DNA from: an uncultured Methanobrevibacter sp.
GTDB lineage: Archaea > Methanobacteriota > Methanobacteria > Methanobacteriales > Methanobacteriaceae
Direction of reading: 5' to 3'
Assembly: GCA_900320515.1 (NCBI GenBank)
Contig: ONSJ01000019.1
Span: 1 to 64,000, forward strand
Length of the DNA: 64,000 bases
Shown: positions 1 to 54,459 of the stretch, in pieces
Position numbering within the stretch: the stretch's first letter is position 1
How the letters are laid out: each line of letters begins with the position of its first letter
Position numbers and translations under genes: made by a program
The notes under the pieces: model-generated
Seen by the model: the letters and a program-made list of their open reading frames with translations, nothing else
Told to the model about the DNA's origin: nothing
The model's database searches: none

Positions 1-3000
1 GAAACATATGATGTAAAAGGAAACTTCCAATTAAATGCAGATGTTGCCGGTGAAGAAGTGACTTATGCCGAAGGTATTGTCATCGATAAGAATATAATCA
101 TTGACGGTCATGGGCTCACAATTAACGCAACCGATGCTAATGGAAATAAAGTAAGAATTTTCAAAATTACAAATGGGGCAACTGTAACCTTAAAGAATAT
201 CATATTGGCTGGAGGTTCTGCTGACAACGGTGGAGCTATCCTTGTCGGTGATGGAACTTTAAATTTAATTGGTGTTGCTTTCATTGAAAATACTGCAACA
301 AACGGCGGTGCGGTCTATTCAGTTGATGGTATTGTTAATGCAATAAACTCTACTTTTGCAAATAATTCTGCAACTTCTTCAAGTGCTCTTCATATAGAAA
401 AAGGTACCATAGAAGGCTCTATTTTTGAAGGTAATTCTGCTGGTGCAGTAACTCTCGGAAATGATGCTAGTGCCAATTATAATGTATTCTTTAACGCACA
501 GACAGTTTCTGGAACTGGTAATTTCGATTATAACTGGTGGAAAACCAACAATCCTGAAAATGTTGGTGTAACATTAAATAATTGGATTGTTATGAACGTC
601 ACAAATGATGATACCTTGATTAAGGTCTCATTAAGCACTTTAAACAATGGTGTAAACGCTCCAAATCCTGAAAAATTACCTGCATTGCCTGTCACTGTTT
701 CTTGGGATGATGTTGTGAAGAACTCAAATCTTGAAAGAGGTATTGCAACTGCTGAATTTGATAAGATTGTTACCTATGATTCAAATTATAATGTTTCAGT
801 AAAAGTTTTAGATGTTGAGGCAAACTACACTTTAAAACCAATCGATTCTGATTTTAATAATTTCGCTCAATTAGACTCTAAAATTAAAGATGCTAATGAA
901 AATGATGTCATTGATTTGGAAAAAGGAGTCAAATTAAATGATGTAAATATTAATGAAGAATCTACTTATAAAAACGGTATTGTAATTGATAAAAGCATTA
1001 CAATTGACGGTCATGGGCTCACAATTAACGCAACCGATGCAAATGGAAATAAGGTTAGGATTTTCAACATTGCAAATGCTGATGTGACCTTGAAAAACAT
1101 GATTTTGACAAGCGGATCTGTTGCTGCTCCTGGTGGTGCGGCCATTTACATTGGCGGAGGGTCATTGACTTTAATCAATGTGACTGTCATTGACAATAAG
1201 GTAACAGCTTTAACCGGTGCGGCATTATCAGCCAATAATGCGCAAGTGACTGTTATAAACAGTAGTTTTATCAACAATACCCTAACTAAAACAGACTATA
1301 CTGGTTTAGGTGGAGGGGCTGCTATTTACTTAAACGGCGGTTCATTAAATGTGGATAATTCATTATTCGAAGGAAATGCATATAGTGGATACTCTTATTC
1401 ATCTTCCAGTGTAGGTGGTGGAGGTGGAGCAATCTATACCACAACCGCTACTACCAACATCATGAACTCCAGATTCATTAGAAATTCAGCTTTCAGGACA
1501 GGAGGTAATGGTGAACTTGTTGCTGGAGCTTTATTAATTAAAACCGGTGTTTTAAAAGGAAATATTTTTGAAGGAAACACCGCTACTTCCGCTCCAAACA
1601 CCATGAGAGTAACTGATGCTGATGCCATTGTCAATTATAATGCATTTGTAGGAACTTCTGCTCAAACCGTTGGCGGATCTGCAGACTACCAAGCTAATTG
1701 GTGGGGTACCAATGACCCTCAATCTGTTGGCGTAACATTGGCAAATTGGATTGTGATGGATTTCTATAATGACGGTAAAGACATTTATGCTACTCTCACC
1801 ACATTAAATGACGGCACTGAAATTTCTAATCCTGAAGCACTGCCTGTAAGGGAGTCAATATTTACTTGGGAAGATACTCCTCATGTGGTCAATACTACCA
1901 ATGGTGTTGCACATGTCAAATTTGATAAGGAAATAATTGCCGGAATTGCTTATGAATCTACAGCAAAAATCGATTCACAGACATTAAGCTTATCTATCAA
2001 ACCGGAAATAACAAGTATTTCAATTACCGAAGTTGTCAATACAACATATGGTTCTAATGGTACTATTAAATTTGTTGTAACCGGTGTAGAGGGTTTTGAC
2101 CCTAGTGGTGATATTTCATTATGGCTTAATGATACATTATTTACTGTACCATTTAATAATGGTGAATGGAATTTGGCTGTTGGGGATAATTTAGATGGTG
2201 GAGTATATGACATTTACTTCAAATATAACGGTGATCAATATTACACTGACACTATTAAGGAAAAATCATCATATCAGTTCAAAATTAGTAAAAATGATCC
2301 TTTGGTAAATGTTACATATAAAAATTCAACTTATTTGGGATTGGATACAACTGTTACTGTTGATTTAACAGGCAATAATATTTATCCAACAGGTAATGTA
2401 ACTATTAATATTGATGGTAAAAACATTACTGCTAAAATAAATAAAGGACAGGCATTTATTCCTATCGGATCAGATTTAAACATTTCAAAAGATTATTACT
2501 TTACCGTTATCTACTCAGGGGATAATGTATTCAATCCGTTTGAAACTCAGCCATATATTCTAACTGTTTTAAAATATGATACTAACGTAACTGCAGAATT
2601 GTCAAAAGCCACAATTCCAATTGGAGAAAACATTACAATATCAGTTACAATAACTCCTCAAGGTGTTGAGATAGAAGGGGGAGACGGACCACTGTATACA
2701 TTGGATAAAGATTCTCCTGCAGACATGTTATCTGAATTAGGATATCTCACACAATCCTCTCCTGCACCTACTGCCTCAATAACCAGTTCCGGAGTCGCAA
2801 TTATCAGTTCTGGAAATGGTGATAATAGATATGTAGCGCTTCCAGTCAAAGGCAATTCAATTGAATTCAAATTTATTAGTTCAAATAAAAATAAATTTAC
2901 AATTTGCACATACAACCCTAATACCGAGTTCAATAAACTATCCTATACTCCTTTAACATACCTTGAATGGGCTTATAGTAAATGGAAATGCAAACCTCCA

Positions 3001-6000
3001 TCAGGAAATGCTATTACTCTTGGTTATACAACCGCTCCTGCTAATGGGGACACATTTAAAGCAACTATTGAAGATGGTAAGATATATTACTACATAAATG
3101 ATGCATTGATTACTTCCACAGCATATTCCTATTCTGAAGCATACTTCGGATTTAGAATATTTGCACAGGGCACTAATGTAGTAGATCAAATAGCTGTTTA
3201 TGGTGAAGGGCAATCTGGTTCAACCTATGTTCCTGATGTTGTCCCGACAGGTAATGTGACTGTTAAAGTTGGTGAAATAACTAAAGAGGTTCCTATTGCA
3301 GACGGTAAAATTAATCTGACATTAGGTGATGTCTTGGATGAAGGAATATATGATGTTGAAATCTCATACGGTGGAGACGGTTATTATAATCCTAGCTTCA
3401 ACAACACTCTCAAATTAGAGGTTAAAAAAGTATTTTATAATGCCACAATTGACATTAATTCTCCAGATGAATGTGAATTGGGTAAAAATATTACAGTATC
3501 TGTTGGAATCGCCGGCCATGAGGGTTTACCTCTTACCGGTGAAGTCACTGTCAAAATCGGCGACATTGTCAGGAAATTTGAAGCTAGTGCTGGTGTATTC
3601 ACTATCGATGTCGGTTCTAATTTCACCGCAGGAAAATATGAAATTTCAGTATACTATGAAGGTGATAATAATTACTTTAACAAATCTTCCAATTCCACAT
3701 TCACAATTAGTCAGGAAACCCCTTCATTGAACATAACTACTAGCGAGACAATAGTGTTTGTTGGTGGTGATGCTATGGTGTACATTAAAGTAACTCCTGT
3801 AAATGGTGTTATTCCAACAGGCAATGTGACTGTGAAAGTAAACGGATTATCTGAAGAACTTAATTTGGATAATAATGGTCAAACTAGTTATAATGTTGGT
3901 GAATGGTTAGTTAAAGGTTCAAATGATGTTGAAATAACTTATAATGGTGATGTGAACTATAAAACCATTTCAGAAACTTTAACTTCAGCATTTAATGTCA
4001 CTGATATTGTGTATGTTAACGCAACTGTAGGTGATGATGAAAATGGTGATGGATCTGGTGAAAACCCATTCAAATCAATTAAAAAAGCATTTTCAGTCTT
4101 GAAAGGAAATGGAACAATCGTTCTTAATGGTTTATTCAAAGGATCAGATAATGTCGGTCTCACATATTCCTCCTCAAAAATGATTAATGTGGACATAATT
4201 GGTAATGACGCAGTTATTGATGCAGAAATGCCTGAAACATCACTGTTTACATTCAATAAGGTAAATGTTCGTTTCATTAATGTAACATTTAATAATCTAT
4301 CCTCCATTAGTACAACATATGGATGTCTTGTAAATGTTGTCGATGCAGATTACTTGGATTTCATCAACTCCACAGTTAACAATATGTTTGTTAAAAACGG
4401 TAAATCCGGTGCAATATACCTGCAAGACTATGACGTCAAATTAACCATTTCAAATTCCAAATTCGACAATTTGGCATCATATGGAAGATTTGGACTCATT
4501 TCAACAAATAGTGTAAATCAAGGATTGAGCAATGCTCGCAATGAAATTTTCATCGATAACTCTTCATTCAGTAATTTCTTGGCATATGCTAACATGTTAA
4601 TTGAAAGTTCCAGAGGATTCGGTGCAGGTGCTAGTGCAGTCATTACAAATTCAATATTCACTAATATGAAAGGAACACAAGCGACATATTCCAGTTTTGT
4701 ACAGTCAAAATCTCTCAACATGTCAAACTGTATCCTATATGATTTGGATTTCAACACCAGATGGACCTGGATTGATATTGGTGAAGGTAATCTGGATTAT
4801 AACTTCTGGTCATCAAACGACCCTGACTTCTCACACCTTTCAGTCAAACCGAATAACTGGATTGTAATGACCTGGAATAATGAAAGCACAGTATTCACAG
4901 TCACTTTAAACACTTTAAATGACGGCAGTGCTTATGATAACATAACCTCATTGGATATTCCTGTAGCTTTCTCTGATAATCTCAATTCCAGTGCTGATAA
5001 ATTGGATGAAAACGGAGTTGCCAATGCAACATTGGAAAAACAATTGAAAGTAGGTGAAAAGGTAAGCGCTACAATCGGCAGTTTAACAATGTCATTATCA
5101 TTCAAACAGGACATTGAAAATATCACAAGCGCTGTTGATGACGCCGTTAGATGGGAAAACGGAACAATAACCATTAATGTAACTGGTAGGGATGATGTTA
5201 TTCCTACTGGAAACGTGACAGTTTGGGTAAATGATGTTCCATATACTGTTGATTTAACTGACGGTGTTGCTGCTTTAAATGTTGGTGATGATTTGGCGGT
5301 TGGAAACTATATTTCAAAAGCCCAATATAATGGCGATGTAAACTATTTCGGCAGTGATGTAATTGAATTCGTTTTCAATGTTGAAAAAACAAATGTGGAA
5401 GTTTCAACCGTTGTAAAATCAATCGAATATGGTCAAAAACAAGTTATTGCATTAGCCTTAAGTTCAAATAAGGCAACAGGTAACTTTACCGTTTTAATCA
5501 ACAACAAACCATATGCCGTTTATGTAAATAATCCTGAACTTGATTTGGGCATTTTGAACGCTGGTGAATATGAGGTTGACGTAACATACAATGGTGATGA
5601 AAACTTTAATGTCGCAAACAATAAAACATCATTTACCATATCTAAAAAGTCAATTGCTCCATTGATCAATTTCAATGAAACAATTAAAGTGGGTGAAAAT
5701 CAAACAATTGAACTTATATTCTCTGAGTATGATGAAGATGCTGCAGTCAAATTGGAAATCAATGGAAACATTAAAGTCCAACCGATTTCTGAAGGTAAGG
5801 CAATATTCATCATATCTGACTTAAAAGAAAATGTCTATCCGTTCAATGTAACTTATGAAGGTACCAATTATGCTATGGGTGCAATTTCACAGGTTTTCGA
5901 AGTATCTAAAACCTCTTTAGAAATTAGTGCTCGTTCAATCAACGCTTCTGCAGGAAACAATGTATCAATCATCATTTCAGGCATTCCTGAAGATGCAACA

Positions 6001-8238
6001 GGTATTGTTGTAGTTTCAGTTGATGGAACTTCTTATGGCACTAGTTGGGTTGATAGTGAATATGTGGCCGTCATTCCTGCATTAAAAGTTGGTGAAAATA
6101 CTGCAAGTGTAACTTTCAAAGGTGATGAAAAATATGAACCTGCAAGCACTTCAGTTGATTTCACTGTAACGGAATTAAACGTGGCTGTAAAAGTTGATGT
6201 TGAAGCTGAGATAACTAAAGATTCAGCTATAATAATTTCAGCACCTGATGCAACTGGTGAAATGACTGTAATTGTGGATGATGAAGTAAAAACAATACCT
6301 ATCATAGATGGTAATGCAAGTTACTCACTTGAAAATGTTTCATATGGTGAACACAGTTTGGTTGTAATCTATAATGGTGTGGTTTCTCATGTCGGTTCAT
6401 TTGTAATTGATAAACTTGATGCTAACATTAGTGCAAGTGCTGAACCGATTCATGTTGGTGATGTGGCTCAGATTATTGTCACCGTTAATGAAACTGCCAA
6501 TGGTTCTGTTGTTGTTGACGGTAAGTATTACGGCGAAATTGATGGTGGTATTGCTGTTATCAGCATTCCTGATTTGACTAATGGAACATACGTATTTTCA
6601 GTCAAGTATTCCGGTGACGATGTATTTGCTGAGGATGAAACAACCGTAACTGTAGTGGTTGACAAATTCGAAATCACTCCTAAAATCGGTGTCGAATCAA
6701 TCGAACTTGGCGAGGACGCATTCATCGAAGTTACCGTATCCAATGCTACTGGCAATGTCACATTCTATGTTGACGGTCAAGATCCGAAAACTGTGGAACT
6801 GAAAGACGGTTACGCAAATATTTGGGTATTTGATTTGACTAACGGAACATACAATGTTAAAGTGGTATACTCCGGTGACGACACATATTATGGAAGTGAA
6901 GCAACAGCCGAATTTGAAGTATCCTATGAAATAGATATTGACAGCGACTCAGTTTACGGCGAAGATTCTATTATTATGATTAACTTGCCGTACGGAGCTA
7001 CAGGTAATGTGACCGTAACTATTGACAATGAAACATTCAAAGCAACTGTTGAAGATGGTTTTGCACATGTTAATGCATCTGCATTAGATTATGGCAGTCA
7101 CGAAATCACTGTAAGCTACTCCGGTGACGACAAATATCCTGCAAAAACAGTTTCCAGTGAAATCAATGTCGAGGCTAATATTGACATTCCCGATGAAATC
7201 CCATACAATGGCGGTGAAATCTCCATTAAGTTACCAAATGACGCAACAGGTAATGTAACAGTAACAATTGATGATAATGAGACTGTTGTAGTTCCTGTTG
7301 TAAACGGTACTGCCAACATCCCATTAGACAACTTATCCATGGGAGAACACGAAATATCAGCAGTATACTCCGGAGATAAAAAGTATGCTGCATCCGGTTC
7401 AAGCTCTGATGTGGTTGTCACTCCGGATATCGGTGTTCCTGATGAACTAACCACCGGAGATAATGTGGTATCAATTGACTTGCCTAGCGATGCGGGAGGT
7501 AATCTGACTGTTAATGTTGATGGTAATGAAATAACTGTTCCTGTCGTGAACGGTGCTGCAAGTGTGCCTATTTCAAATTTAACTGCAGGTCAACATGATA
7601 TATCCGTAAAATACTCTGGTGACGGCAAATATGATGCATTCACTAAACAAATGTCTGCAAACGTTGCTAAAGCAACTCCTTCATCCAGTGTGGATAATCC
7701 TGAAACCATTACTGCAGGAAAAGCATCCAGCGTAAATATTAATTTACCTGCCGATGCAACAGGAATAGTTTTAGTTGATGTGGATGGCAATAAATATTAT
7801 GCAAATGTCCAAAATGGTGTTGCAAAAGTGGATATTGCCGGTTTAACTGCAGGAGATAAGCAATTGACTTATAACTATCTTGGTGATTCCAAATACAATG
7901 CATTCACTGGATCCACCACTCTAAAAGTTGTAAGTGAACCTGTTCCTCCGGTTAAGGATAAAATCGTTTTAACTTCCAAAAACGTGAAAGTTAAAAAATC
8001 TGCTAAAAAACTTGTGTTGAAGGCTACATTAAAAGTAAATGGCAAAGCGGTTAAAGGTAAAAAAATAACCTTTAAGTTCAAAGGTAAAAAATACACTGCA
8101 AAAACCAATAAGAACGGTGTAGCTAAGGTCACCATCAAGAAAAAAGTTATTAAAAAACTTAAAAAGGGTAAAAAATACACAGTTAAAATTACCTACTTGA
8201 AAAAGACCATTAGTAAGGAAATTACTGTTAAAAAATAG
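1..8238 (+). CDS. Giant adhesin-like surface protein, 5'-truncated by window edge
   Basis: The reading frame is open from base 1, so the true start and signal peptide lie upstream. About 2745 residues are visible. The first ~650 residues are two beta-helix units rich in N, G and T, each ending in an NWW/NWIV element. Ig-like repeats with Y(S/N)GD and PTGNVTV signatures follow. A globular insert interrupts one Ig repeat (about 2676-3230). A second beta-helix starts at about 4009 with VYVNATVGDD and NPFKSIKKA, then about ten more Ig-like repeats. The last ~90 residues are a lysine-rich Ig-like domain. Methanobrevibacter genomes carry many such adhesin-like proteins, assumed to be surface-exposed and to bind cells or polysaccharides. 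The basic tail may hold the protein to the wall, which is inference. A hairpin terminator overlaps the stop. Confidence 0.9.
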   Translation, partial: ETYDVKGNFQLNADVAGEEVTYAEGIVIDKNIIIDGHGLTINATDANGNKVRIFKITNGATVTLKNIILAGGSADNGGAILVGDGTLNLIGVAFIENTATNGGAVYSVDGIVNAINSTFANNSATSSSALHIEKGTIEGSIFEGNSAGAVTLGNDASANYNVFFNAQTVSGTGNFDYNWWKTNNPENVGVTLNNWIVMNVTNDDTLIKVSLSTLNNGVNAPNPEKLPALPVTVSWDDVVKNSNLERGIATAEFDKIVTYDSNYNVSVKVLDVEANYTLKPIDSDFNNFAQLDSKIKDANENDVIDLEKGVKLNDVNINEESTYKNGIVIDKSITIDGHGLTINATDANGNKVRIFNIANADVTLKNMILTSGSVAAPGGAAIYIGGGSLTLINVTVIDNKVTALTGAALSANNAQVTVINSSFINNTLTKTDYTGLGGGAAIYLNGGSLNVDNSLFEGNAYSGYSYSSSSVGGGGGAIYTTTATTNIMNSRFIRNSAFRTGGNGELVAGALLIKTGVLKGNIFEGNTATSAPNTMRVTDADAIVNYNAFVGTSAQTVGGSADYQANWWGTNDPQSVGVTLANWIVMDFYNDGKDIYATLTTLNDGTEISNPEALPVRESIFTWEDTPHVVNTTNGVAHVKFDKEIIAGIAYESTAKIDSQTLSLSIKPEITSISITEVVNTTYGSNGTIKFVVTGVEGFDPSGDISLWLNDTLFTVPFNNGEWNLAVGDNLDGGVYDIYFKYNGDQYYTDTIKEKSSYQFKISKNDPLVNVTYKNSTYLGLDTTVTVDLTGNNIYPTGNVTINIDGKNITAKINKGQAFIPIGSDLNISKDYYFTVIYSGDNVFNPFETQPYILTVLKYDTNVTAELSKATIPIGENITISVTITPQGVEIEGGDGPLYTLDKDSPADMLSELGYLTQSSPAPTASITSSGVAIISSGNGDNRYVALPVKGNSIEFKFISSNKNKFTICTYNPNTEFNKLSYTPLTYLEWAYSKWKCKPPSGNAITLGYTTAPANGDTFKATIEDGKIYYYINDALITSTAYSYSEAYFGFRIFAQGTNVVDQIAVYGEGQSGSTYVPDVVPTGNVTVKVGEITKEVPIADGKINLTLGDVLDEGIYDVEISYGGDGYYNPSFNNTLKLEVKKVFYNATIDINSPDECELGKNITVSVGIAGHEGLPLTGEVTVKIGDIVRKFEASAGVFTIDVGSNFTAGKYEISVYYEGDNNYFNKSSNSTFTISQETPSLNITTSETIVFVGGDAMVYIKVTPVNGVIPTGNVTVKVNGLSEELNLDNNGQTSYNVGEWLVKGSNDVEITYNGDVNYKTISETLTSAFNVTDIVYVNATVGDDENGDGSGENPFKSIKKAFSVLKGNGTIVLNGLFKGSDNVGLTYSSSKMINVDIIGNDAVIDAEMPETSLFTFNKVNVRFINVTFNNLSSISTTYGCLVNVVDADYLDFINSTVNNMFVKNGKSGAIYLQDYDVKLTISNSKFDNLASYGRFGLISTNSVNQGLSNARNEIFIDNSSFSNFLAYANMLIESSRGFGAGASAVITNSIFTNMKGTQATYSSFVQSKSLNMSNCILYDLDFNTRWTWIDIGEGNLDYNFWSSNDPDFSHLSVKPNNWIVMTWNNESTVFTVTLNTLNDGSAYDNITSLDIPVAFSDNLNSSADKLDENGVANATLEKQLKVGEKVSATIGSLTMSLSFKQDIENITSAVDDAVRWENGTITINVTGRDDVIPTGNVTVWVNDVPYTVDLTDGVAALNVGDDLAVGNYISKAQYNGDVNYFGSDVIEFVFNVEKTNVEVSTVVKSIEYGQKQVIALALSSNKATGNFTVLINNKPYAVYVNNPELDLGILNAGEYEVDVTYNGDENFNVANNKTSFTISKKSIAPLINFNETIKVGENQTIELIFSEYDEDAAVKLEINGNIKVQPISEGKAIFIISDLKENVYPFNVTYEGTNYAMGAISQVFEVSKTSLEISARSINASAGNNVSIIISGIPEDATGIVVVSVDGTSYGTSWVDSEYVAVIPALKVGENTASVTFKGDEKYEPASTSVDFTVTELNVAVKVDVEAEITKDSAIIISAPDATGEMTVIVDDEVKTIPIIDGNASYSLENVSYGEHSLVVIYNGVVSHVGSFVIDKLDANISASAEPIHVGDVAQIIVTVNETANGSVVVDGKYYGEIDGGIAVISIPDLTNGTYVFSVKYSGDDVFAEDETTVTVVVDKFEITPKIGVESIELGEDAFIEVTVSNATGNVTFYVDGQDPKTVELKDGYANIWVFDLTNGTYNVKVVYSGDDTYYGSEATAEFEVSYEIDIDSDSVYGEDSIIMINLPYGATGNVTVTIDNETFKATVEDGFAHVNASALDYGSHEITVSYSGDDKYPAKTVSSEINVEANIDIPDEIPYNGGEISIKLPNDATGNVTVTIDDNETVVVPVVNGTANIPLDNLSMGEHEISAVYSGDKKYAASGSSSDVVVTPDIGVPDELTTGDNVVSIDLPSDAGGNLTVNVDGNEITVPVVNGAASVPISNLTAGQHDISVKYSGDGKYDAFTKQMSANVAKATPSSSVDNPETITAGKASSVNINLPADATGIVLVDVDGNKYYANVQNGVAKVDIAGLTAGDKQLTYNYLGDSKYNAFTGSTTLKVVSEPVPPVKDKIVLTSKNVKVKKSAKKLVLKATLKVNGKAVKGKKITFKFKGKKYTAKTNKNGVAKVTIKKKVIKKLKKGKKYTVKITYLKKTISKEITVKK
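100..137 (+). repeat. Exact 38-bp direct repeat inside adhesin (copy 2 at 1003-1040)
   Basis: Bases 100-137 and 1003-1040 are identical, and both flanks stay similar. Each copy codes for the IDGHGLTINATDANGNK stretch at the head of a beta-helix unit. This marks a ~900-bp module duplication, and such repeats could support recombination between modules. Confidence 0.85.
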
Positions 8239-12231: not shown

Positions 12232-12365
12232 AGTTACACCTTTTTTAGGTTGTTTGAAAAACTAATGTAATAACTCTTAACCGAGAAGGTTTCTTTTTTG
12301 TCTTTAATATTCGGTTTTTGGGAATTTATGGACATATAGGAAAATGGTTCATCATTTAAGAGCTA

Positions 12366-25884: not shown

Positions 25885-25895
25885 CTTTTAACAAT

Positions 25896-25923
25896 TCGGG
25901 TTCGAATCTCGGCTCCGGCCCCA
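25896..25923 (+). pseudogene. tRNA 3'-end relic (T-arm, acceptor strand and CCA)
   Basis: TCGGG-TTCGAAT-CTCGG forms a T-arm. It is followed by the seven-base strand CTCCGGC, a C in the discriminator position and an encoded CCA. No D-arm, anticodon arm or 5' acceptor strand precedes it; tRNA-Leu ends 11 bases upstream. C73 with CCA recalls tRNA-His. It may be a recombination scar or an old attachment site, and no integrase gene is nearby. Confidence 0.6.
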
Positions 25924-25957
25924 TTTATAAAAACTATTTTTTTTCGATATTACTTTT

Positions 25958-25985
25958 CAAATGCTCTCTCATTTAGTTTATATAG
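25958..25985 (+). promoter_or_regulatory. Dyad element plus TATA box in front of hjc
   Basis: The 16-mer CAAATGCTCTCTCATT (25958-25973) contains the dyad AAATG-N6-CATTT when the next base is included. Three bases later comes the TATA box TTTATATAG (25977-25985). The same 16-mer occurs at 54430 in front of the YdjM-like gene, also just upstream of a TATA box. Confidence 0.55.
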
Positions 25986-44686: not shown

Positions 44687-47600
44687 ATGAAGGTTTATAA
44701 AACGATGTTTATCATTGCCTTTTTGGTAGTGATATGTTCCTTGTCATTTGTTAGTGCAAGCGAATCTGACAATGGAACTGTTTTAGAAAACGATGTATTA
44801 AGTTTGGATGAATCAGATTCTCCTGTTGAAGTTTTAAACACTGTTAGTGATGATTCTTCAATAAGCAGTGATTCTTCTAAGGGTGGTGTTTTAAACACTG
44901 TTGATGATTCTCCGGTAAATGCTAATTATAATTCTTCTCAGGATTTGGGAATTGATTCTTCTGGGATGGATGTTTTAAATGCAAGTGATGAGGATAAGTT
45001 ATCTTATGACTCATATTATGGAACTCGTGACAAGCTCAACAAGCTGGTTGAGGATGCCTTGCCTGGCTCAACAGTTACTTTAGATGAGGATTTTCAGTTT
45101 GTAGGGGATCAGGATCCTGTTAAAATAACTAAGAGTATTGTAATCGACGGTAAGGGGCATAAAATTTTCCTTGGTGCTAATCCTGCTTTTGACTTAAATT
45201 ATGAGACTCCATATGGAAAGATAGAAATAAAAAATATTGTTTTTTTGGGAGGATGTAATAGGGCAATTACAGTTTATGGAGATTGTTGTCCTTTTGTAAT
45301 TTCTGGTTGCAGCTTCTCATTTGTTTATGCAGGTCTTTCTGCAGGTGCACTTGACCTAAGGGCTACATATAAATCTTATGTTGTTGATTGTACTTTTAAT
45401 GCATGTCATGCTGAAGGGTCTTTTACGGTTGTTACATGGGAGACTCTGCCTACTATGTCTTCCACTGCATTTAGTGATGGCGGCGCCATTTATTGTACTG
45501 GCCCTATGACAATTCAATCTTGTAGATTTGATAATTGTTCTGCTGGAGACGGGGGTGCAATATACGCACGTGATGATGTCCAAATAATAGATTGTATTTT
45601 TGCCGGAAATCATGGTGGAAGATCTGAATGTTGGGAGTCCCCTTTGATTGGAGGTGCTGTTTATATTGGACAGGGATATAACTCCCTAGTTAAGGGATGC
45701 AGATTTATTGGAAATCATGCTGGACGTTATGGGGGTGCAATTGCAACATATGGTAATAATGCCCGAATCGAGGATTGTCTTTTCGATTCCAATTATCTGG
45801 ACAATAGTTATATGCAAAAAGGTGGAGCAATCTTTGTTTCTTGTAATTCTATGAATGACAAGACCGATGTTAATATAGCCAGGTGCACATTCATTAATAA
45901 TGGATATGATGGAAATGAGCATTACTGTAAAGATGGTGGTGCAATCTATCTCGATGATAGGATTGTTGGAGGAAATATTGTAGACTGTAATTTTACCGGC
46001 AATCGTGCAACAAAATGTGGTGGTGCAATATATTCAACATCCGATTGTAACAATTATAAAATTTCAAATTCTGTATTTTCCAGAAACAAGGCTAATGATA
46101 AGGGTGGAGCAATCTATCTCGATTCTACTAAGGTTGTTGTTCAGGATTCTATTTTTGATTCCAATTCCGCTGATGATGATGGTGGAGCTATTTATGTTGA
46201 ATCAAGATATAATACAATTAAAAACGCCCTATTTACAAATAACACTGCTAAGGACGAAGGTGGTGCATTGTATATCAATGCAAGATACACTACTGTTGCC
46301 TTTTCCAGTTTATTGGGAAATGCTGCTAAAAAGGGTTATGACATTTATTGTGATTCCAGCTATTGTACTCTTTCAGATTCCGTTGTTTTGGGAAACAATC
46401 CTAAGGAGGCAATTTATTCTTCTAAGGCATTCTCCGCTAAAGGCTGTTGGTGGGGAAATGTCCTAAGCAATAAAAATGTCAAACCGGATGTTGAAAAGAA
46501 AGTGAATCTTGGTGACGTTTGGCTTTATCTTAAAGAAGATATTACATACGGCCATACCGGTTCATTGCCTACTGCGGTTCTTGGAACTGGTCTTTGGTCT
46601 CCAGTGTCTGGGTCTAGGGTTACCAATTATCCAAAATTCACTTTTGACATGGCTTTCACAAATGTGGTTTCAAATTCAAATACGATGGTCTGTGACGGTT
46701 TAAGTGATTTCATTTATCCGCTGTCTGCAACCGACACTGCCGTAACTCTTTCAAGAGGCAAGTGGTCTTACAAGATTAATATGAATTTTGATTCCGCTGT
46801 CTTTAATAATCTTTCCCTGTCTCATCTAAAGAATAATATTGATCATGCAGGAGGAGAATTGACTGCAGAACTGATTTTGGACAGTGATTATGGATATATG
46901 GATATCTGTGACAAAGAGGTAATTGACGGATTTGATGTTAGTAAGAATCTTGTCCTTGATGGTAATGGACACACTATCGACGGAAAAAATGTTTCTTCAT
47001 TATTTAACACATATAGGGAATTGACCTTGAAAAATCTCAACCTGGTCAATCTCAAAAGAGTTGTAAATTCTAAAACGGCAAGGGATATTTATATCGAGAA
47101 TTGTACTTTCACTAATTGTGGAATTGGTTTTGATGTATTGACTGTTTTAGGAGAAAAAATTTCAATTAAGGATTCCAAATTTTATGATTGTTATTCGGAG
47201 TCTTCCATAATCTTCTGCAATAGTCAAAAGAACTATACCTTGTCAATGGTCGGCTGTGAATTTATTGGAAATAATGCCAGTTCCCTTGTAAAAGGTACTC
47301 ATTCCAAATCATTTAACATTATCCAAAACATTTTCCTGAATAATAACTTCGCTGAAATGTTTAAGTTTACAAAGGGCAATCCTTCAAATTCAAGTTATGA
47401 TTTAAACTGGTTTGGAAATACTATAAATGATTATAATTTCAGGCCGAACGTCAATGTTGATTTGGATAATTGGATGGTCTTGGATATAGTAAATGATGAA
47501 AATACATTCGGAACAAAGTATATTTATCTCAAACCGTATAATGCAACTTCCCAAGTGATTGAAAACAGCACATATTTGAATATTGGGTTCAATGTTTCTT

Positions 47601-50600
47601 CTGAAGGAAAATACCTTGGATTTGTTGATGTCGTTTCCGGTGTGGGAGTGATGGATTATCTATTAAGCTTAAATTATGTGACCTTAAGTCATTTGTCCAG
47701 TGATTTCCTATTTTATGTTGTAAATTACCTGCCGGGATCATTTTCACATTTACAGCATCAGATTAACAATGCGGGTGCTGATTTAAATCTGACATGTAAC
47801 TATGAATATATGCCTGTTTGCGATTCTGAACTCACCTCTATCGTCATCAATAAACCATTGATATTGAATGGTAATGGCTTTACAATAGATGCTAAGGACA
47901 TGGCCTCTATCGCCAGAATCACTGGTGAGGGTGTTCAAATCTTAAATGTTACTTTTGCTAACAGCTTCCATGATTATCTCCCTGCCCTCTTAATTAATGC
48001 AAATAATGTTTTGATTAATTCAACTTTCATCAATAACACTAACTATGGTAGTGACGGTGGTGCAATTAAGGTTGACAAGTCCAATAATGTTCTTATCGAG
48101 TCAACATTCTTTAATAACACTGCATGTGAGGGAGGTGCAATTTCTTCCACTGGCTCTGAGGTTTCAATCAGCGGAATATTTTTAGACAATAGCGCTAAAA
48201 TTGGTGCAGCTGTTTATATTGACAGTCCTAGTGGTTTAAGTAGGATTTATAAATCACTGTTCGTGTCAAATCATGCTAAATGGGCGGTTGTTGACTTGAG
48301 GTATGGTAATAATATTCATAATCTTGATGTTTCCTATTCAATTTTCTTAGACAATGAAGGTGCCCATGACATCGGTGCAGGTAAAATGAGCCAGGTTTAT
48401 GCGGATTATAACTGGTTTGGAAATACCAATGAAAATTACACCGTCAAACCTAAAGTCGGATTAGGCGTTAACGTGGACAAATGGTTGTTTTTAGATGTCA
48501 GTGCCAATAGCACTCTTTTAAAATCAGGCGAATCAGCAATCATTAACGTTAGCCTGAATAATGTTTATGACCGTGTCAGTAAAAAGGTTTATAGTGTCGG
48601 AGTTAATCTGCCGGATTTCAGTTTTGATGTTGAGTCCGTCAATAATGCAGTGAGTATGCAAAAGCTTGAATTGGTTGGCGGCAAAGGTTATATGCCTTAT
48701 GTGCCTATTGATGAAGGTGTCGGAAGCGTCGCTTTCAAATATTATTCAATTAACAGGGATGTTGAATTTAAGGTGGTCAGTGTTCCTGAGGATTCATTTA
48801 CAAAATTACAAGAAATTATTAATAATGCAAGTGCTCATGACAGCATAGTATTAAACAGGTCATATAAATATTATCCTGATTTTGATGGTGACCTCAATAA
48901 CGGTATCGTGATTGATAAGGCGTTGATGATTAATGGTAACGGACATGTGATTGACGGTGCAAATCGAGCCCGTTTATTTAATCTCACCACCACTGGCATT
49001 GAAGTGCAATATCTCATTTTGGTCAATGCCTATGCGGAAACCGGTAGCGTTATTTATTCAAGTTCTTCAGGCAATAAGCTGTCAGGTTCATACGTTTTAA
49101 ATTCAACCGGTCCATTAATCTATTGTCCCTTCTATTTTGTTGCGAATGAAAACTGGTTTGGAAATACAGTTGATGATTATGATGTTGCTCCTGTAGTTGA
49201 TGTGGGCAATCTTGAATTAAACAACTGGTTGTTCTTGACAGTCGATGTGTCTAAATTCGACTTGTTCGTTGGCGAGAAGGCAATCATTACACTTAACTTG
49301 ACCAATATGTATAATGCCAATAGCGGAACTAACTCCACATTTACTAGTCAAATTCCAGTCACTTTTGACTTGTCCTGTGTTGGTGGAGAAGTAAACCTTT
49401 CCGAAGCCACACTGATTGATGGCATTGCCCAATTAGAGTTCATAGGTGATGGTATCAGACATGGATATCTGGAAATGTCATGTTATAATGTCACTGAGGA
49501 ATTATACTTTGATGTAAGTTGTGATGATGATTCATTCACTGCCCTTCAGAAATTGATCAACAATGCTACGGGCAAGATTGTCTTGCAGCATGACTACAAG
49601 TATTACGATTATGATGGGAACTTTAAAGATGGAATCAAAATTGATAAAGCCATTGAGATTGATGGGAATGGACATATTATTAATGCTTCAAATAAAGCCG
49701 GAGTGTTCAATATTGTCGGGGAATACGTTGCTGTATATGATTTGTCTATCGTTAATTCCATAAACTCCATTTTAATTGATGGAGGATATGCTGCTGTTGA
49801 TAATATTTCATTTATCAATAACGCCGACGTGATATCTGTTGTTGCCGGCAACATGGAAATTTTGGGTTGTTATTTCCGGAATAATTCTAATGTTGTTGAT
49901 TTGGATTCTGCTTATGAGGTTTTCATTTCCAATTCAACATTTGTAAATAATACAGATATTATCAATGCATCCTACAGTGTTGTGGTCATTAACAATACTA
50001 ATTTCATTGGTAATGATGTCGGTTCATACTGTGTTTACTTAGCAGATTCCAATGCCAAGATTTACTCCTCTAAATTTAATGAAGTTAATTTGGTCGATCC
50101 GATTTTCGTATCAGTTGATTCTGAGTTATATTTATCCAATAATACCTTAAGCAGTTCCCAATACATTCTCAATGATGGGGTTATAAGTTCAAAAACCCAT
50201 GTCGTCATTGCCGGTGAAAAGTATCGCAATTTGTCAATCTATGATAACTTGACTTTAAGCGCTAAAGTCTATGATGACAATGGCAATGTTATTTTGATTA
50301 ATGATTTGGAATTCAATGTTGACCCTGTCCTTGATTATAATGAAAGTTCACAAGGTCTTGATTGGATTTTGAATGTCCACTGTTATCCTGATGACATATA
50401 TGAGGTTATGCCATTGGTATTTGATTCACTTTCTAATTATGAGACACACTCCATTTTATTGAATGTGTCCAAATTCCCATCCAGCGTTGATATTGTTTCA
50501 TTGAATAATATTACTTATGGTGAGGTTTTAAACGTAAAAATTGATGGTGAAAACTTAACAACTGCAGTAATTGAAATCAGGAATGCTTCCGGCGATGTCA

Positions 50601-52333
50601 TTTATAGGGCAACCGATAGCGGCACCGAGTTTAGTGTATATTCATTGGATACGGGCATTTATACCCTGACATGTACCAATGTTGGCGATGATGACCATGC
50701 GTCTAGTTCATCTACAGCGATGTTTGAAGTTTATAAGATGGAATCTGATGTTGTCATATCTGATGTTGGCTCCATTTATGCGTTCAATGATTATAAAATA
50801 TATTTCACAGTAACCAACAGAACCAATGTCACTGTAACAGTCGTGGACAGAAAAACAGGAAGCATAGTTTTAAATGATAACGTTTCCGAAGATTTCGTTC
50901 TTGTTAATTTGCATGCCGGATCGTATAATCTTACTGTGACCAATGTTGGAGACAATAATCATGAAACCAGTTATGGTTCAATAGTATTTGAGGTATTTAA
51001 AGTTATTTCTTCAGTTAACCTTGATGATGTTGCAGATTATTTCTACGATGATGTTTCAATAACATATGAGCTTGTCAATGCTTCTGAAGTTAATGTGGTT
51101 ATTCGTGATGTCGCCACCGGCGGAATCAAATATAATTTCACATCAACAAGCACTACAATTTCCGATTTGTATTTTGACAGCGGACGTTATAACATTACTC
51201 TTTATGTTGAAGAATCTGAAAGCTGCATTTCAAGCAGTGATTCCAAACTTTTCAATGTTTTAAAAATCGATTCTTCAATTGTTATTGATGGCTTGGCTGA
51301 TTACGTTTATGGCGATGATGTGGAAGTGGACATTATTGTTGATAATCGCACAACTGTTGTTGTCGCAATTAAGAATGACTCAGGTGTACAGGTATTTAAC
51401 GGAACCGTTGAAGGAGATTATTTCGCATTACCTGATTTGAGTTCCGGCAAATATACCTTGTTTGCAAACAATTTGGCTACTGACAATGTTGCCGGAAGCA
51501 ATTATACTAAATCATTCAAAATTTCCAAAGCAAATTCAACTTTTGACTTATTGCAATTTAATGAAACCCTCCCTTGGGGTTATGATTTCATTGTACTTTT
51601 TGACGGTGAAAATCTCACAGATATTTCCGTTATTGTTCGTGATAGTAATGGAAACGTGATTTCTGGAGGCAATTTAACATATTCTGGGTCTTATTTCTAT
51701 ATCATGAATAATTTGTCCCGTGGCAAGTATGCAATTGATATAATCAATAATGGTAATGAGAACATTACTGGCTGTAACGTTTCATGGAATCTGACAATAT
51801 TTAAAGGCAATTCCACTGTTGAAATAAAGAACATCTCTTCAGTTTATGTCGATGAGACAGTATTCATTGCATATTATGTGATGCCTACAGGAATAATCAA
51901 TATTGTCATCACTAATTCAACAGGCAATGTCGTTTTCACTGCTGAAAATGTGAATTCATCCAATATTACAGTTTCAGGATTGCCTGCAGGAAATTATACG
52001 GTCAATGTCACCAATTTAGAAACAAAAAACGTGTTCGGAAACTATTCCATTAGCAATTTCACGGTTTACAAATATGAATCAGCGGTTACAATACATGACA
52101 TGAAGGATGCTGTCTACGGCGAAAATGTTTTAATAGGCTTTGAAGTTAAAAACCCAACCATTGTGCATGTAAAAATAACTGATTCAGAAGGCAAAATCAT
52201 TTATGAGGGGGATGAAACTAATTACAGTATTCTGTTCACTAATTTGGATGTTGGAGATTATGTTATAAACATCACTAATATGGAAACACCTGATGTGGCC
52301 GGAAGTAATGCTTCCAAGTCATTCAAAGTCTGA
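44687..52333 (+). CDS. Giant adhesin-like surface protein, main part (frameshifted near 3' end)
   Basis: The 2548 residues begin with a signal peptide (MFIIAFLVVICSLSFVSAS) and an acidic low-complexity linker. Successive beta-helix domains follow, several closed by a W(W/F)GN motif (at about residues 586, 907, 1242 and 1488), then Ig-like repeats with G(D/S)Y-x-(I/L)-(T/N) patterns from about 1890. The first beta-helix is unusually cysteine-rich for this class. The frame stops at TGATGA (52331-52336) in the middle of an Ig repeat, while the next frame continues with the expected sequence. The gene is therefore split from its C-terminal anchor domain unless the ribosome shifts frame. An AAGGAG ribosome-binding site precedes the ATG. 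Confidence 0.88.
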   Translation: MKVYKTMFIIAFLVVICSLSFVSASESDNGTVLENDVLSLDESDSPVEVLNTVSDDSSISSDSSKGGVLNTVDDSPVNANYNSSQDLGIDSSGMDVLNASDEDKLSYDSYYGTRDKLNKLVEDALPGSTVTLDEDFQFVGDQDPVKITKSIVIDGKGHKIFLGANPAFDLNYETPYGKIEIKNIVFLGGCNRAITVYGDCCPFVISGCSFSFVYAGLSAGALDLRATYKSYVVDCTFNACHAEGSFTVVTWETLPTMSSTAFSDGGAIYCTGPMTIQSCRFDNCSAGDGGAIYARDDVQIIDCIFAGNHGGRSECWESPLIGGAVYIGQGYNSLVKGCRFIGNHAGRYGGAIATYGNNARIEDCLFDSNYLDNSYMQKGGAIFVSCNSMNDKTDVNIARCTFINNGYDGNEHYCKDGGAIYLDDRIVGGNIVDCNFTGNRATKCGGAIYSTSDCNNYKISNSVFSRNKANDKGGAIYLDSTKVVVQDSIFDSNSADDDGGAIYVESRYNTIKNALFTNNTAKDEGGALYINARYTTVAFSSLLGNAAKKGYDIYCDSSYCTLSDSVVLGNNPKEAIYSSKAFSAKGCWWGNVLSNKNVKPDVEKKVNLGDVWLYLKEDITYGHTGSLPTAVLGTGLWSPVSGSRVTNYPKFTFDMAFTNVVSNSNTMVCDGLSDFIYPLSATDTAVTLSRGKWSYKINMNFDSAVFNNLSLSHLKNNIDHAGGELTAELILDSDYGYMDICDKEVIDGFDVSKNLVLDGNGHTIDGKNVSSLFNTYRELTLKNLNLVNLKRVVNSKTARDIYIENCTFTNCGIGFDVLTVLGEKISIKDSKFYDCYSESSIIFCNSQKNYTLSMVGCEFIGNNASSLVKGTHSKSFNIIQNIFLNNNFAEMFKFTKGNPSNSSYDLNWFGNTINDYNFRPNVNVDLDNWMVLDIVNDENTFGTKYIYLKPYNATSQVIENSTYLNIGFNVSSEGKYLGFVDVVSGVGVMDYLLSLNYVTLSHLSSDFLFYVVNYLPGSFSHLQHQINNAGADLNLTCNYEYMPVCDSELTSIVINKPLILNGNGFTIDAKDMASIARITGEGVQILNVTFANSFHDYLPALLINANNVLINSTFINNTNYGSDGGAIKVDKSNNVLIESTFFNNTACEGGAISSTGSEVSISGIFLDNSAKIGAAVYIDSPSGLSRIYKSLFVSNHAKWAVVDLRYGNNIHNLDVSYSIFLDNEGAHDIGAGKMSQVYADYNWFGNTNENYTVKPKVGLGVNVDKWLFLDVSANSTLLKSGESAIINVSLNNVYDRVSKKVYSVGVNLPDFSFDVESVNNAVSMQKLELVGGKGYMPYVPIDEGVGSVAFKYYSINRDVEFKVVSVPEDSFTKLQEIINNASAHDSIVLNRSYKYYPDFDGDLNNGIVIDKALMINGNGHVIDGANRARLFNLTTTGIEVQYLILVNAYAETGSVIYSSSSGNKLSGSYVLNSTGPLIYCPFYFVANENWFGNTVDDYDVAPVVDVGNLELNNWLFLTVDVSKFDLFVGEKAIITLNLTNMYNANSGTNSTFTSQIPVTFDLSCVGGEVNLSEATLIDGIAQLEFIGDGIRHGYLEMSCYNVTEELYFDVSCDDDSFTALQKLINNATGKIVLQHDYKYYDYDGNFKDGIKIDKAIEIDGNGHIINASNKAGVFNIVGEYVAVYDLSIVNSINSILIDGGYAAVDNISFINNADVISVVAGNMEILGCYFRNNSNVVDLDSAYEVFISNSTFVNNTDIINASYSVVVINNTNFIGNDVGSYCVYLADSNAKIYSSKFNEVNLVDPIFVSVDSELYLSNNTLSSSQYILNDGVISSKTHVVIAGEKYRNLSIYDNLTLSAKVYDDNGNVILINDLEFNVDPVLDYNESSQGLDWILNVHCYPDDIYEVMPLVFDSLSNYETHSILLNVSKFPSSVDIVSLNNITYGEVLNVKIDGENLTTAVIEIRNASGDVIYRATDSGTEFSVYSLDTGIYTLTCTNVGDDDHASSSSTAMFEVYKMESDVVISDVGSIYAFNDYKIYFTVTNRTNVTVTVVDRKTGSIVLNDNVSEDFVLVNLHAGSYNLTVTNVGDNNHETSYGSIVFEVFKVISSVNLDDVADYFYDDVSITYELVNASEVNVVIRDVATGGIKYNFTSTSTTISDLYFDSGRYNITLYVEESESCISSSDSKLFNVLKIDSSIVIDGLADYVYGDDVEVDIIVDNRTTVVVAIKNDSGVQVFNGTVEGDYFALPDLSSGKYTLFANNLATDNVAGSNYTKSFKISKANSTFDLLQFNETLPWGYDFIVLFDGENLTDISVIVRDSNGNVISGGNLTYSGSYFYIMNNLSRGKYAIDIINNGNENITGCNVSWNLTIFKGNSTVEIKNISSVYVDETVFIAYYVMPTGIINIVITNSTGNVVFTAENVNSSNITVSGLPAGNYTVNVTNLETKNVFGNYSISNFTVYKYESAVTIHDMKDAVYGENVLIGFEVKNPTIVHVKITDSEGKIIYEGDETNYSILFTNLDVGDYVINITNMETPDVAGSNASKSFKV

Positions 52334-54418: not shown

Positions 54419-54429
54419 CGATTAGTTTG

Positions 54430-54459
54430 CAAATGCTCTCTCATTAATCATTTAAATAG
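54430..54459 (+). promoter_or_regulatory. Second copy of the hjc dyad element plus TATA box
   Basis: CAAATGCTCTCTCATT (54430-54445) is identical to 25958-25973 and is followed after five bases by TTTAAATAG (54451-54459), then GG, as in the hjc promoter. The gene served is the YdjM-like one starting at 54491. Confidence 0.55.

Follow-up and report, generated by a model that had tools for sequence, protein, structure and literature searches.

What does a short DNA sequence do that stands, unchanged, in front of two otherwise separate promoters, and which protein might read it? The 64,000-nucleotide stretch analysed here (the window) raises this question through the exact 16-mer CAAATGCTCTCTCATT, which occurs at 25958-25973 and 54430-54445, both on the + strand. 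A first-pass annotation had placed these copies 3 and 5 bases before the TATA boxes of a Holliday junction resolvase gene (hjc) and a ydjM-like gene. Both distances are exact, and Pfam supports both gene assignments (Table 1). In E. coli, ydjM is regulated by LexA.

Extent and position of the element

The home genome (G000) comprises 2.1 Mb in 69 contigs and is about 85% complete. Across the whole of it, the 16-mer has 53 matches at ≤3 mismatches, compared with 10 for the reversed pattern, and the strength of these matches lies in the CAAATGCTCTC part rather than in the 3' ATT. This 11-mer core occurs in 36 exact copies in the 2.1-Mb genome and 58 times at ≤1 mismatch, against 6 for the reversed pattern.

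The 16-mers are the visible 3' part of a larger unit, an asymmetric 20-bp element, ATTA(C/G)TTTTCAAATGCTCTC, and the conserved unit reaches 9 bases further upstream than the 16-mer. When sites in the home genome were chosen by the 3' 11-mer alone, 27 of 29 carried (A/T)(A/T)TA(C/G)TTT(T/G) directly upstream, so the upstream half is not an effect of the search pattern. The 20-mer is present in 27 exact copies in the home genome and in 39 within 3 mismatches, and the reversed-pattern control gave 0; together with the count of exact cores, this bears out the earlier expectation that a chance 16-mer was unlikely. A position weight matrix (PWM) scan of the window returned the two sites at 36.4 and 30.9 bits, with the next best at 5.8 and a maximum of 10.5 in 10 Markov windows.

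A logo of 236 non-redundant sites is flat beyond the 20 bp, save for weak preferences at adjacent bases and the downstream TATA signal. Its information content is inflated because the sites were retrieved with the consensus, a bias that affects neither the TATA signal nor the gene content. A TATA box starts 8-12 bp after the element at 146 of the 236 sites, compared with about 18 in shuffles. Promoter association, set beforehand as a test of the proposal, is thus what we observe, and it is virtually certain in our judgement that the element is cis-regulatory.

The dyad AATG-N6-CATT, which the first-pass annotation took for the unit, did not survive this analysis. Among the non-redundant sites, CATT stands in register in 10 of the 181 that have AATG. 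As a candidate in its own right, the dyad has 13 matches in the window, where Markov copies give 4.5, yet CATT is missing from the other 171 AATG sites, and the dyad is a coincidence. A supposed half-site in the chaperone gap also fell away, on its PWM score (Table 1).

Three further features of the window were noted. A fragment resembling a tRNA 3' end, ggttcgaatctcggctccggcccc, lies at 25894-25925 between a tRNA-Leu gene and hjc; it is possibly an integration scar or a tRNA remnant. Two huge open reading frames, at 58-8238 and 44687-52333, encode 2726 and 2548 amino acids and possibly specify adhesin-like surface proteins.

Table 1. Positions of element copies, their promoters and genes, and related loci. 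Unprefixed positions are those of the window; L and C labels denote loci and contigs.
Feature	Location	Strand	Basis or detail
20-bp element ATTACTTTTCAAATGCTCTC, hjc copy	25949..25968	+	exact consensus; sequence, 20-mer search, PWM
TATA box TTTATATA of hjc	25977..25984	+	8 bp past element; sequence, spacing class
hjc, Holliday junction resolvase, 136 aa	26019..26429	+	Pfam PF01870, 4.7e-36
20-bp element ATTAGTTTGCAAATGCTCTC, ydjM copy	54421..54440	+	1 mismatch to consensus; sequence, 20-mer search, PWM
TATA box TTTAAATA of YdjM-like gene	54451..54458	+	10 bp past element; sequence, spacing class
YdjM-like membrane protein gene, 235 aa	54491..55198	+	Pfam PF04307, 4.5e-17
Rejected half-site, chaperone gap	12342..12357		PWM best -13.5
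TnpB elements with the element	G000 contig ends C16, C22, C34, C36, C38, C53; L117, L172
Tandem arrays of genus g12	L333, L334, L335, L336, L338		between archease and small-protein gene
Cdc6-2 paralogs lacking the winged helix	L228:2462-3289, L229:449-1273, L237:1926-2777, L289:344-1195, L374:1626-2450, L400:1633-2451		273-284 residues each
Structured RNA loci	L090:5411-5630, L182:4529-4748, L223:1521-1740; L222:1281-1500, L174:1272-1491; perhaps L359	+ (first three); - (next two)

Target genes and distribution across Methanobacteriales

Genes that begin shortly downstream of the element were typed by Pfam. They include Hjc, RPA (with multiple OB folds), topoisomerase VI-B (TopoVI-B), Mre11, NurA, UvrD, UvrA and RfcS, as well as MutS domain V with HhH, Hef (ERCC4), Hel308-like and XPD/DinG-like proteins, MCM, PolD DP2 and NrdD. 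Further targets are YdjM, DUF763, a radical SAM protein with HhH, a KH protein, Zn_ribbon_2 and Panacea, and the remainder comprises RhuM, a C5 methylase, phage integrase and TnpB of several kinds. No radA was seen among these targets. About 51 of the 291 assessable sites have no assigned gene, and for one target, a 111-residue protein with the motif LNWxEEI, the structure model reached a pLDDT of 66 and found no match in the PDB.

Once transposon, contig-end and probable chance matches are left out, about 24 targets are counted in the home genome, and at least 13 of them are replication, recombination, repair or dNTP-synthesis genes. The enrichment corresponds to p ~9e-8 at a generous background of 10% and ~2e-11 at 5%, the background rate being assumed. 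The families recur in other genera. As to gene content, the first guess of a DNA-damage-type regulon thus has strong support, and the element very probably marks a repair/replication regulon. The complete genome G046, an independent case, has weak sites only (1-3 mismatches), and these stand before TopoVI-B, RPA, YdjM, Mre11, NurA and Hef; further sites there precede an XPD-like helicase and two small families that are also found elsewhere.

At five loci, perhaps six, no gene follows the element; its place immediately downstream is taken by a conserved, structured RNA of about 180 nt that appears to be non-coding (Table 1). Its long stem shows compensatory pair changes, and a search of Rfam gave no match.

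At ≤3 mismatches, the element is present in 140 of 151 Methanobacteriales genomes: each genome of the home genus holds 3-50 copies, the number is lower in most other genera, and it falls to 0-2 in two outer families (the genus and family names of the compared genomes, including that of the Methanosphaera-like genus discussed below, are inferred). Two targets return even in the outermost families, RPA and a single-span membrane protein of about 45-66 residues. In one genome of a sister class, no element was found at ≤1 mismatch. Of the 80 loci listed from a GTDB scan, all but two belong to Methanobrevibacter; one of the remaining two is from another member of the Methanobacteriaceae and the other is an isolated match in Oceanobacillus. 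Conservation before orthologous genes in sister species had been named in advance as a test, and the proposal withstood it: such conservation is found, and it extends across genera.

A candidate reader and a natural change of the site

One copy of the element serves as an anchor throughout the order. It precedes the gene for the small membrane protein, which adjoins cdc6-2, and it is found there in nearly every genome examined. Archease/rtcB on one side and cdc6-2 on the other flank the small-protein gene, an arrangement shared by the home genome, other genera and both outer families. At L278:1751-4363, the anchor copy sits between archease/rtcB, which belong to RNA repair, and the small membrane protein.

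Cdc6-2 is an ORC1-type protein (NF001624, 540 bits). Its model matches A. pernix ORC1-DNA (2v1u, E 3e-24) and places the winged helix at 293-360. Relatives with a solved structure comprise Orc1-1, Orc1-3 and A. pernix ORC1/ORC2. The Cdc6 copies in L290 and L292 are a different protein, set in another neighbourhood. A review describes the second core Orc1 copy as never linked to origins and suggests regulatory roles for it (PMC5333045); judged by this and by its locus, Cdc6-2 would be a non-origin Orc1/Cdc6 paralog. Because Cdc6-2 occurs in nearly every genome, its presence or absence cannot tie it to the element.

Two further observations concern cdc6-type genes. No element was found upstream of the mptE-cdc6-2 operon at ≤2 mismatches (L278), and thus no autoregulation is visible. 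In several genera, Cdc6-2-like proteins of 273-298 residues that lack the C-terminal winged helix are encoded right behind the element (Table 1), and among cdc6-type genes only these short paralogs have it. They may possibly act as feedback modulators.

The genus g12 (20 genomes, Methanosphaera-like) seemed nearly free of the element in the consensus search. Its cdc6-2 neighbourhood holds tandem copies of ATTACTT(A/C)TCANN(A/C)CCCCTT, 20-24 bp apart, the last of which stands at the TATA box of the small-protein gene. This version has CCCC in place of CTC in the 3' block. Searching with it also recovered sites before TopoVI-B, DUF763, a short Cdc6 paralog and TnpB genes. The same genes are thus preceded by the g12 version, and we conclude that the site changed while the targets stayed.

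The Cdc6-2 of g12 is also the most diverged, with 50-53% identity to the home protein compared with 56-60% in the more distant outer families. Residues conserved elsewhere but altered in g12 include F329 (recognition helix) and K349 (wing), although changes in the winged helix are not enriched (3/22, against 8/110 in the rest of Cdc6-2). The apparent co-divergence of element and protein is suggestive, not statistical.

Proposed mechanism, alternatives and relation to known systems

The reading we favour, with moderate confidence and from sequence comparison, is that Methanobacteriales possess a damage or replication-stress regulon controlled through a 20-bp upstream activating element that Cdc6-2 likely reads. 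This non-palindromic element would define a lineage-wide set of repair, recombination and replication genes onto which mobile elements have hooked. A DNA-binding regulator would occupy the element, which is two helical turns long and lies immediately upstream of the B-recognition element (BRE) and the TATA box, at about -60 to -41 if the TATA box is near -30. Upon DNA damage or stalled replication, the regulator would recruit TFB, TBP and RNA polymerase. The position upstream of the BRE argues for activation rather than repression, which we consider likely, and damage or replication stress is, with comparable assurance, the probable signal. The likeliest reader would be Cdc6-2, a second, non-origin Orc1/Cdc6 protein with an AAA+ ATPase and a winged helix, whose gene adjoins the one target that has the element throughout the order; we think this assignment somewhat better than even. 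The short paralogs without a winged helix could tune the response or switch it off.

For the protein, the main rival is another reader, such as an unrecognised transcription factor, acting on the same regulon. This is a substantial possibility, given that the linkage to cdc6-2 concerns one target only and that no copy of the element is visible at cdc6-2 itself. Against it, Cdc6-2 is the sole recognised DNA-binding protein of the conserved neighbourhood, its short paralogs have the element, and element and protein appear to co-diverge in g12. An alternative TFB was considered as reader and is unlikely because a single TFB is encoded in each of three genomes (the home genome, G046 and G150) out of six examined.

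For the signal, the main rival is replication timing. In such a replication or cell-cycle regulon, comparable to E2F/MBF, the element would time its genes to replication without a damage signal. RPA, RfcS, MCM, PolD DP2 and NrdD among the targets would suit this, as would an Orc1/Cdc6 protein as candidate reader. Most targets, however, are recombination or repair enzymes (Hjc, Mre11, NurA, Hef, UvrA, UvrD, MutS-like), and YdjM and the mobile-element genes fit a stress signal better. We therefore judge replication timing unlikely.

The element could also be a mobile repeat, spread by transposons and without a regulatory role for host genes. About 11 of the 39 home-genome copies are indeed IS200/605 tnpB promoters, several of them at contig ends. 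In TnpB elements of the IS200/605 type, the element serves as the transposon's own promoter and is preceded by a conserved end that bears a hairpin; copies recur at contig ends because these transposons have the element and break the assembly. The host copies, however, have no flanks in common: what they share is just the 20 bp and the distance to the TATA box, and other genera and families have them in front of the same host genes. This orthologous conservation largely refutes an origin as a mobile repeat, which we hold to be highly improbable. An exact 16-mer recurring by chance, or a palindromic dyad acting as a repressor site, would account for the two exact copies in the window and is practically eliminated by the core count of the genome, the near absence of the CATT arm and the order-wide conservation.

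The favoured regulon resembles two known systems in part. In Sulfolobus and Saccharolobus, the Orc1-2 regulon is defined by the DNA-damage hexamer DDRE, A(N)TTTC (PMC9738581, PMC5817253, PMC10470591). Orc1-2 is a global damage regulator in S. islandicus that requires both its winged helix and its ATPase (PMC9738581), its non-palindromic site directly precedes BRE/TATA (PMC5817253), and mre11/nurA are listed as induced together with herA-rad50 (PMC10470591). The Methanobacteriales system likewise combines a non-palindromic element upstream of BRE/TATA, a DNA-damage-type gene set that includes mre11/nurA and, as proposed here, a non-initiator Orc1/Cdc6 paralog as reader. It differs in that the element spans 20 bp instead of 6 and lies about one helical turn further upstream. 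ANTTTC is absent from its consensus, which has CTTTTC/GTTTTC instead. Core repair genes dominate its targets, whereas repair genes reportedly showed no increase in a Sulfolobus UV study (PMC2246294). No ups/ced genes were seen among the Methanobacteriales targets, and a regulator gene carrying its own site, a feature of the Sulfolobus regulon, is not visible for cdc6-2.

With the bacterial SOS response (LexA/RecA), the regulon shares genes for nucleotide excision, recombination and helicases, YdjM, a tiny single-span membrane protein, mobile elements that tap the signal and the coordinated control of repair genes, the last being seen here only as a promoter element in common. Unlike SOS, it has an asymmetric element that precedes an archaeal TATA promoter and probably activates it, and there is no palindromic LexA operator. 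Since the hexamer, visible autoregulation and a palindromic operator are missing, we place it in neither the Sulfolobus Orc1-2 nor the SOS class. The element also recalls the origin recognition box (ORB) and mini-ORB as an asymmetric two-block site of about 20 bp, the size bound by one Orc1 through winged-helix and AAA+ contacts. In contrast to the ORB, which has a dyad and a G-run and is clustered at origins, it has no internal dyad and occurs as tens of dispersed single copies before TATA boxes; tandem arrays are confined to g12 and end at a TATA box there too.

In the freely available published literature, our search turned up no account of this element, nor of any damage regulon in methanogens. 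The regulon appears to be an as yet undescribed equivalent of bacterial SOS. Its fullest form, to which we give not quite an even chance, would be an SOS-like response shared by the whole order and directed by an Orc1/Cdc6 protein that has abandoned its work at origins. It would act through a slowly co-evolving 20-bp element, be tuned by paralogs lacking the winged helix, include a tiny membrane protein (possibly a division inhibitor) and a structured non-coding RNA, and be exploited by TnpB transposons, integrases and other mobile genes.

Whether Archaea beyond the Sulfolobales mount a coordinated transcriptional response to DNA damage is an open question, to which this regulon gives one concrete and testable answer in the main methane-making archaea of the gut, dominant in humans and livestock. 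It comes with an exactly defined element, a list of targets and a candidate for the regulator, and the Methanosphaera-like version supplies a natural sequence swap. The element also suggests roles for the unannotated families behind it, and its use by transposons presents mobile elements tapping an apparent host stress signal in Archaea. If the proposed regulon is real, it would suggest, together with Sulfolobus, that transcriptional damage control of the Orc1 type is widespread among Archaea.
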